This document shows positions 7,800-41,545 of a stretch of 64,000 bases of DNA, piece by piece. The translations under genes were made by a program, and so were the position numbers. The number at the start of each line of letters is the position of its first letter. Within the stretch, counting starts at the first letter, position 1. Under the pieces are notes generated by a model. The model searched no databases and was not told where the DNA came from. It saw nothing but the letters and a program-made list of their open reading frames with translations. Source of the DNA: Candidatus Siliceabacter maunaloa (GTDB lineage: Bacteria > Actinomycetota > Thermoleophilia > Solirubrobacterales > Solirubrobacteraceae); NCBI GenBank assembly GCA_024330185.1, contig JANDLV010000013.1, positions 1 to 64,000 on the forward strand, read 5' to 3'.

Positions 7800-8411
7800 C
7801 TACCCGTCGGCGTCCTCGCCGCGCAGGCGCTCGATCACACGCTCGAAGACGTCGTGGGGTTGCGCGCCGGGCACGAGGACGCGGTCGTCGATGACCCAGG
7901 CCGGCACGCCGCCGCCGCCCGTCTCGTGCAGCGCGCGGGTCTGCGCCTCGAGGCGGTCGATGTACTGCTCGCCCGCCAGCACGTCGGCGATCTCGCCGGC
8001 GTCCAGGCCAACCGCTGCGGCCTCCTCGCGCAGCACCGCGGGGTCGCCGATGTCGCGGGCGCGGTGCCAGTAGGCGTCCATCACCCGGTGGTGCAGTTCG
8101 TCGTGGCGCCCGCGGTCGCGGGCCAGCTCGATGAGCTGCTGGGCGCGGCGGGAGTTGGGCACGTGGGTGATCTCGCGTGAGTAGGGCAGCCCGGCGGCGT
8201 CGAACATGGCGTAGATGCGGTCGCGCCAGGCTCTGCCGCCGTAGCGCCGGTCGAGCTCCTCGGTGGAGATGCCCTGAGGCGGATACTCGGGATGCAGGTC
8301 GAAGGGCAGCCACTCGATCGTCGCGCCGAACCGGCGCTGAAGCCACGCGGCCCGCTCGAGGCCGACGTAGCAGAAGGGTCATATGGGGTCGGACCAGACG
8401 CGGATGAGCAT
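7800..8411 (-). CDS. DsbA/FrnE-like oxidoreductase, probable selenoprotein (UPFC active site)
   Basis: The gene reads from ATG at 8411 to a stop at 7800 only if the TGA at 8381-8379 is translated. The start gives MLIRVWSDPI, then TGA, then PFCYVGLERAAWL. FrnE/DsbA-family thioredoxin-fold proteins have a CPxC-type active site at exactly this place, so the TGA replaces the first, nucleophilic cysteine (U11-P-F-C14). Downstream the protein is intact for 190 residues, including the family's EWLPFDLHPEYP segment and a cis-proline loop (GGVPAWVIDD). A candidate SECIS hairpin follows the TGA. Total length is about 203 residues. The gene starts 3 nt after the yedK-like stop, so the two are co-transcribed. 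The alternative, a disabled gene, is less likely given the precise codon position and intact flanks. Confidence 0.82.
8343..8370 (-). promoter_or_regulatory. Candidate SECIS element of the DsbA-like selenoprotein
   Basis: In the mRNA, beginning 8 nt after the UGA, a 28-nt segment folds as CUACG pairing with CGUGG, a single bulged U, then CGGCC pairing with GGCCG around the loop UCGAGCG. The apical loop is about 19-25 nt after the UGA. A U bulge and an apical loop at this distance resemble bacterial SECIS elements such as fdhF. If the U-G pair closing the loop forms, a G falls within the first two loop positions. Hand-folded only. Confidence 0.55.
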
Positions 8412-40165: not shown

Positions 40166-41185
40166 ATGAACGGGACCTCGGGCCGGCTGCTCACCCTCCT
40201 CTCCCTGCTCCAGGGCCGCCGCGACTGGCCGGGCGGCGAGCTGGCCGACCGCTTGGAGATCTCGGGGCGCACCGTGCGCCGCGACATCGAGCGCCTGCGC
40301 GACCTGGGCTATCCCGTCGACGCGCTCACCGGCCCGGCCGGGGGCTACCGCCTGCGGGCGGGCGGCGCCATGCCGCCACTGCTGCTCGACGAGGGGGAGG
40401 CGGTGGCCATCGCCGTCGGCCTGCGCACGGCCGCCGGCGCCTCGGTCACCGGGATCGAGGAGACGGCCGTGCGGGCGCTGGTGAAGCTGGAGCAGGTCCT
40501 GCCCTCCCACCTGCGCCGGCGCGTCAACGCGCTGCAGTCGGCCACCGCGACGGTCGCCGCGACCGGCCCGACCGTCGACCCCGAGGCGCTCACGGTGATC
40601 GCCACGGCCTGCCGTGACCGCGAGCGACTGCGCTTCGCCTACGCCAGCCGCGACGACACGCGCAGCCGCCGTCACGTGGAGCCGCTGAGCCTGGTCAACC
40701 TGGGTCGGCGCTGGTACCTGGTGGCCTGGGACTGCGACCGCGGCGACTGGCGCACCTTCCGCGTCGACCGCCTCGAGCGCCCCTCGCCCGCAGCCACGCG
40801 CTTCGCGCCGCGCACGCTTCCGGTAGCCGATGCTGCCGCCTACGTGAAGCAGAGCCTGGCCGCCGCGCCCCAGCGCCACCAGGCCCGCCTCACGCTGCAC
40901 GCCCCGGCCGACGCCGTCCGGTCGCCGTACCTGTGGGGCGAGCTGCGTGAGCTCGATGCGCAGTCCTGCGAGTACCGCACCGGCGACGACTCGCTGGACT
41001 GGCTCGCGGTGCGCATCGGGATGCTCGGCGTCGACTTCGAGGTGCACGAGCCGCCCGAGCTGGTAGAGCGGTTCCGCGAGCTCGCTGGGCGGTTCGCGCG
41101 CTCGGCGGGCGGCGCGCCGTCGCCCACGCGGCGAAGCACGCCGGCGGCAGGCTTGAGCGGCACGGTCACCGGAGAGGATGGGTGA
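40166..41185 (+). CDS. HTH-11/WYL-domain transcriptional regulator
   Basis: This 339-residue protein has an N-terminal winged helix (RLLTLLSLLQGRRDWPGGELADRLEISGRTVRRDIERLRDLGYPV) and a WYL domain (RLRFAYASRDD...RRHVEPLSLVNLGRRWYLVAWDCDRGDWRTFRVDRLER). The C-terminal WCX-like region ends in DWLAVRIGMLGVDFEVHEP. WYL domains bind ligands or nucleic acid and set repressor or activator state. It diverges from the drrAB-like genes. The selenocysteine rhodanese gene follows 30 nt later and may be in the same unit. Confidence 0.93.
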   Translation: MNGTSGRLLTLLSLLQGRRDWPGGELADRLEISGRTVRRDIERLRDLGYPVDALTGPAGGYRLRAGGAMPPLLLDEGEAVAIAVGLRTAAGASVTGIEETAVRALVKLEQVLPSHLRRRVNALQSATATVAATGPTVDPEALTVIATACRDRERLRFAYASRDDTRSRRHVEPLSLVNLGRRWYLVAWDCDRGDWRTFRVDRLERPSPAATRFAPRTLPVADAAAYVKQSLAAAPQRHQARLTLHAPADAVRSPYLWGELRELDAQSCEYRTGDDSLDWLAVRIGMLGVDFEVHEPPELVERFRELAGRFARSAGGAPSPTRRSTPAAGLSGTVTGEDG

Positions 41186-41215: not shown

Positions 41216-41545
41216 ATGGCCAACGTGATCAGGATCACCCCGCAGGAGCTCAACGACCGGCTCGAGGGCCCCCGCCCGGTCGTCGCCCTCGACGTGCGCC
41301 GCGGCTCCCACGAGCGCAGCGACACCAGGATCGTCGGCGCGATGCGGATCCATCCCGACGAGGTGGCGGACAACATCGAGGCGATCCCGCCTCGCGCGGA
41401 GATCATCACCTACTGCACCTGACCGAACGAGAACTCGAGCGCCCGTGTGGCGCTCTTCCTCAACGAGCACGGCTTCCGCGCCGCCGCGCTGGCCGGCGGA
41501 TTCGAGGCCTGGGAGCAGGGAGGGTTCCCCACCGAGCCGCAGTAG
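41216..41545 (+). CDS. Rhodanese-like protein, probable selenoprotein (C-T-U active loop)
   Basis: The frame from ATG 41216 encodes a rhodanese domain: VVALDVRRGSHERSDTRIVGAMRIHPDEVADNIEAIP, then EIITYCT, TGA (41420-41422), and PNENSSARVALFLNEHGFRAAALAGGFEAWEQGG to a TAG at 41545. Related rhodaneses carry a C-x-C-P-x-E loop (as in YCTCPNE), so the TGA stands where the second cysteine would be. The downstream half is fully conserved, including the GGFEAW ending that all rhodaneses need. A 7-bp SECIS-like hairpin follows. Total length is 109 residues with Sec at 69. It likely handles persulfides or selenium/sulfur species. Confidence 0.85.
41437..41455 (+). promoter_or_regulatory. Candidate SECIS element of the rhodanese selenoprotein
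   Basis: GAGCGCC (41437-41443) pairs perfectly with GGCGCTC (41449-41455) around the loop CGUGU. The stem starts 14 nt, and the loop 21 nt, after the UGA, and the loop has G then U at positions two and three. Outer bases GAA (41431-41433) and UUC (41455-41457 region) may extend the stem across a U-containing bulge. These features fit bacterial SECIS rules as I know them; hand-folded only. Confidence 0.6.

Follow-up and report, generated by a model that had tools for sequence, protein, structure and literature searches.

A Predicted Cys-x-Sec Rhodanese Selenoprotein in Candidatus Siliceabacter maunaloa and Its Relatives

The Locus and the Read-Through Protein

The window analyzed here is a 64,000-nucleotide stretch of Candidatus Siliceabacter maunaloa DNA (contig JANDLV010000013.1) with a GC content of 72.6%, and it contains a small plus-strand gene at 41216–41545 that encodes a predicted rhodanese selenoprotein of 109 residues, counting Sec69, and ends with the stop codon TAG at 41543–41545. 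The only interruption of this open reading frame is a TGA at 41420–41422 within the active loop YC67-T-U69-P, and the read-through protein is MANVIRITPQ...EIITYC67-T-U69-PNENSSARVALFLNEHGFRAAALAGGFEAWEQGGFPTEPQ. A preliminary description of this DNA had stated that the TGA halts the frame in the middle of the loop and that the remainder of the rhodanese follows in frame, and both the coordinates and the continuation are as it claimed. Once the TGA is read through, the Pfam family Rhodanese (PF00581) spans residues 8–100 with an E value of 2.3e-10 and a score of 41.3 bits (gathering score, 22.2 bits), which places part of the domain 3′ of the TGA. Cys67 (codon at 41414–41416, plus strand) stands at the start of the rhodanese active loop. 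The GC content at third codon positions (GC3) remains typical of coding sequence on both sides of the TGA, at 0.97 before it and 0.93 after it. Standard gene calling truncates at 68 residues an open reading frame that is, on our reading, a selenoprotein gene. An AlphaFold model computed from the single sequence had a pLDDT of 38 and a pTM of 0.23, and a scan of the whole window at Rfam gathering thresholds gave no match.

The rhodanese gene is preceded by a plus-strand gene for an HTH-WYL-WCX transcriptional regulator (40166–41185), which ends 30 nt before it, and its other neighbor is a convergent greA; these neighbors say little about function. A second selenoprotein gene, of the DsbA family, lies at 7800–8411 on the minus strand (PF01323, E value 6.5e-30) and has the active site UPFC with its TGA at 8381–8379. 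The presence of two such TGA cases within 64 kb had been pointed out in the preliminary description, and the DsbA-family case also proved real. A stable hairpin was observed after the UGA of that gene.

The SECIS Hairpin and the Selenocysteine Machinery

Downstream of the rhodanese UGA is a putative bacterial SECIS (bSECIS) hairpin at 41437–41455 on the plus strand, GAGCGCC-CGUGU-GGCGCUC. It had been described as a perfect 7-bp hairpin with a GU-containing loop, and it was found as such, with stem arms at 41437–41443 and 41449–41455, beginning 14 nt after the TGA, and an apical loop CGUGU at 41444–41448 that starts 21 nt after the UGA. The minimum free energy (MFE) is −14.6 kcal/mol (z −1.96), and 6 of 200 shuffled sequences were equally stable. 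Published rules for bSECIS elements ask for a loop of 3–9 nt, a stem of 4–16 bp, and a distance of 16–37 nt from the UGA (PMC13188914), together with a G at loop position 1 or 2 and an MFE of −7.5 kcal/mol or lower (PMC13188914); the SECIS prediction, run as a check, places this hairpin within all of them with its 5-nt loop, 7-bp stem, distance, and stability. The hairpin alone was rejected as proof of a SECIS element, as a SECIS-like 7-bp hairpin lies at a permitted distance from 38 of the 1086 TGA triplets in the window (3.5%). What raises this one above chance is the conservation of both the UGA and the hairpin in 18 homologues. In all 19 sequences, Ser is encoded by AGC and followed by a codon with C in third position, the codon after these is CGT, CGG, or TGG and never CGC (the commonest Arg codon among sampled window genes, at 54%), and GCG closes the stem core. 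Such codon choice preserves the core of the stem and a loop G(U/G) at positions 2–3, as in the published bSECIS pattern, and both features are retained in 19 of 19 sequences. Pairing was found in 86.5% of cells as compared with 81.1 ± 1.5% in shuffled sequences and 23–57% in slid versions, and stem covariation was 0.154 versus 0.067 in controls, with three of the core pairs contributing none of it because they are invariant. The Ser codon AGC is also present in 11 of 12 relatives with Arg at the Sec site, so part of the codon conservation may reflect shared ancestry. Conservation of the predicted SECIS element supports the case, though not as independent proof, with shared ancestry and protein constraint both contributing.

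The genome, a draft assembly of 3.79 Mb in 120 contigs that is 95% complete, contains the full set of genes expected for bacterial selenoproteins. The genes selA (474 bits) and selB (274 bits) are adjacent on contig C35, selD (371 bits) is on contig C46, and selC is represented by a single tRNA-Sec that scores 65.5 bits, which is above the family cut-off, and that ARAGORN calls tRNA-SeC with the anticodon tca. The Sec machinery, which the preliminary description had wanted verified, is thus found in the genome. Genomes with such rhodaneses are enriched in selA, which is present in 15 of the 18 genomes with CxU or UxU rhodaneses and in 9 of 26 comparison genomes (Fisher p 0.002), where the comparison genomes were picked by hand and the three CxU/UxU genomes without selA are 75–88% complete.

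Homologues and the Reading of the UGA

The homologue search covered 299 genomes from the class and 396 from the phylum. A UGA occurs at the aligned codon in 18 other genomes from eight families besides that of the window, mostly as YCTUP and in several architectures. The best-scoring homologues are Sec forms, at 46–48% identity, and no Cys or Arg form exceeds about 40%. Cys takes the Sec site in homologues from Paraburkholderia, Cupriavidus, Pseudomonas, Burkholderia, and Xanthomonas (YCVCP, YCACP, YCSCP), several of which are annotated as DedA–rhodanese fusions. The in-frame UGA of the window gene aligns with Sec or Cys in these homologues, as expected of a bacterial selenoprotein. In family f5, which belongs to the same class, Arg occupies the site (YCDRPGEATS), and the five genomes tested there are without selA. 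These f5 proteins are a clade of CxR rhodaneses related to the CxU form (L023–L027, L031, L039, L041, L045, L046, L050, L051). A homologue from a Rokubacteria MAG (L009, 3904–4206) reads YCASP, with TCA (Ser) as the codon at the Sec site, in a genome that has selA; it keeps the SECIS-like sequence AGC GCC CGG GTG GCG and, from these features, is probably a Sec-to-Ser loss. The homologue alignment suggested as a check supported the reading, with Sec or Cys at the site in homologues. Other relatives have Ser or Arg there, and the idea that non-Sec relatives always have Cys was rejected on the strength of the f5 and Rokubacteria proteins. The occurrence of Sec, Cys, Ser, and Arg at a single loop position offers a natural series for testing what Sec contributes to the chemistry of rhodaneses.

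Within the host's own family, the gene is present in only 1 of 146 genomes, which leaves no close relative for comparison and suggests horizontal acquisition. A protein tree with few columns gave the window protein no firm placement, and a peptide-pattern scan of genome contigs recovered two relatives only. A sequence search of the PDB returned rhodanese-domain proteins only, none of them described as a selenoprotein.

On this evidence, the UGA at 41420–41422 (plus strand) is almost certainly the codon for Sec69 of a stand-alone single-domain Cys-x-Sec rhodanese. The claim in the preliminary description of a rhodanese with Sec in its active loop is upheld by the recurrence of UGA at this codon in 18 homologues, the conserved hairpin, and the decoding machinery. 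That the gene might instead be a pseudogene or a product of sequencing or assembly error, with a nonsense mutation of a Cys codon (TGC/TGT) or another codon in an ordinary rhodanese, is very improbable. The gene has the status of a sole copy in its family and comes from a draft assembly of many contigs, as might be expected of an error, but the identical codon recurs in the 18 other genomes, the coding frame and GC3 continue on both sides, the SECIS is conserved, and the genome decodes Sec. It is scarcely credible that the UGA is a true stop, which would yield an N-terminal product of 68 residues with the downstream part unexpressed or separately translated. Standard gene calling does deliver an open reading frame of exactly this length ending at 41422, yet homologues conserve the remainder of the rhodanese domain, which continues in the same frame as far as residue 109, and relatives in which an N-terminal CTU domain is fused to an MFS protein run for >300 residues in frame past the UGA.

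Architectures, Loop Chemistry, and Known Rhodanese Classes

The relatives with UGA at the aligned codon include several larger proteins. At 13 loci, an antiporter-like membrane protein is in frame before the CTU rhodanese domain, giving CPA1-type Na+/H+ antiporters with a C-terminal Sec rhodanese (L054–L058, L060–L062, L066, L070–L072, L081); in a Pfam search of L055, one of these loci, Na_H_Exchanger and Rhodanese were identified. At two further loci (L083 and L084), the CTU Sec rhodanese is N-terminal to a transporter, and Pfam, run on L083, identified Rhodanese and MFS_3, with the MFS domain making up the long stretch in frame after the UGA. Two rhodaneses from different families (L053 and L059), both in genomes with selA, are of a double-Sec UxU type with UGA at the catalytic Cys and at +2 (YUDUP, YUTUA), and in each, both UGAs are within the permitted distance of a single hairpin. 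Both UxU genes are directly upstream of a gene for an Lpd-like Pyr_redox disulfide reductase (pyridine nucleotide-disulfide oxidoreductase), and one of them has a second Pyr_redox flavoprotein on its opposite side. The CxU gene in L052 is flanked by genes for an NAD-binding reductase and a MOSC protein. From gene content, these neighborhoods of the stand-alone relatives fit a redox-coupled role. In a text search, the 2026 review PMC13188914 had neither an antiporter entry nor a UxU entry, and the CxU rhodanese–MFS architecture is likewise absent from it. Among the few papers that mention rhodanese, antiporter, and selenoprotein, none seems, judging by title and abstract, to report a fusion of this kind.

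In the alignment, Cys67 corresponds to the rhodanese nucleophile and Sec69 sits at +2. Sec as a substitute for the catalytic Cys was thus ruled out for the window protein, which qualifies the TGA-for-Cys reading of the preliminary description: the Cys at the Sec site in the proteobacterial homologues is a different residue from the catalytic Cys67, which is retained. Compared with the usual CX4R loop of single-domain rhodaneses, this loop has two extra residues and lacks the Arg at its end (YCTUPNENSSAR as compared with YCASGNRSAR), so the loop-end Arg or Lys of a thiosulfate-type single-domain rhodanese is not found here. These two features favor persulfide reduction or relay over thiosulfate sulfurtransfer. 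Sulfane sulfur transfer from thiosulfate depends critically on the loop Arg in yeast RDL2 (PMC8533005), and a persulfide or redox role therefore seems more likely for the window protein. We infer that the Cys-Sec pair would serve in the transfer or reduction of persulfide (or selenium). Cys67, at the classical nucleophile position, would take up sulfane sulfur as a persulfide, and Sec69 would be the resolving or relay residue that either closes a Cys-Sec selenenylsulfide or passes the chalcogen on. A flavoprotein or thiol reductase would then reopen the selenenylsulfide. The reductase genes adjoining the UxU relatives and L052 hint at this mechanism of persulfide reduction or relay, for which we put the prospects at a little short of even. 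Taken more broadly, the CTU rhodanese modules may form a wider, largely undescribed set (stand-alone, C-terminal to antiporters, N-terminal to MFS proteins, and UxU) whose Cys-Sec or Sec-Sec pair would reduce or sense persulfide (or selenium) and serve or gate membrane transport, a proposal that we offer tentatively.

An ordinary sulfurtransferase of the thiosulfate type, whose Sec does no more than tune the loop or guard it against over-oxidation, is unlikely but has some evidence behind it. Cys67 is kept at the catalytic position, and the tolerance of Cys, Ser, or Arg at the Sec site in relatives indicates that neither the fold nor a basal activity strictly depends on Sec. Against such an enzyme stand the longer loop without its terminal Arg, a residue that matters in RDL2, as well as the reductase genes beside the stand-alone relatives and the existence of the two UxU forms. 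Rhodaneses can also bind selenium, and the gene occurs mainly in genomes with selA (the 15 of 18 noted above), as a perselenide carrier delivering selenium to SelD might. Such a role in selenium trafficking is nevertheless improbable: the gene is missing from several family genomes that have selA (G011, G017, G047, G087, G154), which implies that Sec synthesis can proceed without it, and in the window's genome it is not near selD, being on contig C26 as opposed to C46.

The CxU motif places the window protein among rhodaneses that are already catalogued, as "form 3, CxU" with the example TKB26178.1 (PMC13188914) and as "COG0607 form 2, CxU" (PMC9312934). This form, for which the NCBIfam model is NF041203 (rhodanese_LYCAU), shares with the window protein an active loop in which x-Sec comes after the catalytic Cys, and the window protein matches the model over the full length with an E value of 1.6e-23 and has the CxU motif as CTU at residues 67–69. 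Its score of 82.8 bits is, however, below the curated cut-off of 115, and its motif is YCTUPNE; it should therefore not be called that equivalog, though it is of the same kind. The cut-off of 115 bits was exceeded in none of the 396 sampled genomes of the phylum. By sequence likeness, the window protein is best described as a divergent new instance of the known CxU rhodanese class, itself a predicted one, and it would extend this class to a lineage that scores below the current family model. The fusions of a DedA family protein with a GlpE-type rhodanese (e.g., WP_003112452.1) have a homologous domain whose Cys coincides with the Sec position, but they differ in having Cys rather than Sec (YCACP, YCVCP, YCSCP), an annotated DedA membrane domain, and no UGA. 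The ChrE rhodanese (NF033833) is a related single-domain protein (E value 1.4e-14), whereas the score of 54 bits is below its cut-off of 120 and the ChrE used for comparison reads YCVHGHQ, in which position +2 is neither Cys nor Sec. Form 1 of the rhodanese selenoproteins is UxxS. The f23 type YCSNFNUHSS is a rhodanese selenoprotein from the same phylum as the window protein but has Sec at Cys+5 and falls in a separate tree group. Rhodaneses of this second Sec type (YCSNFNUHSS and similar; L077, L080, L105–L107, L109–L115) were observed mostly in family f23, with others in f8, a family of the window's class.
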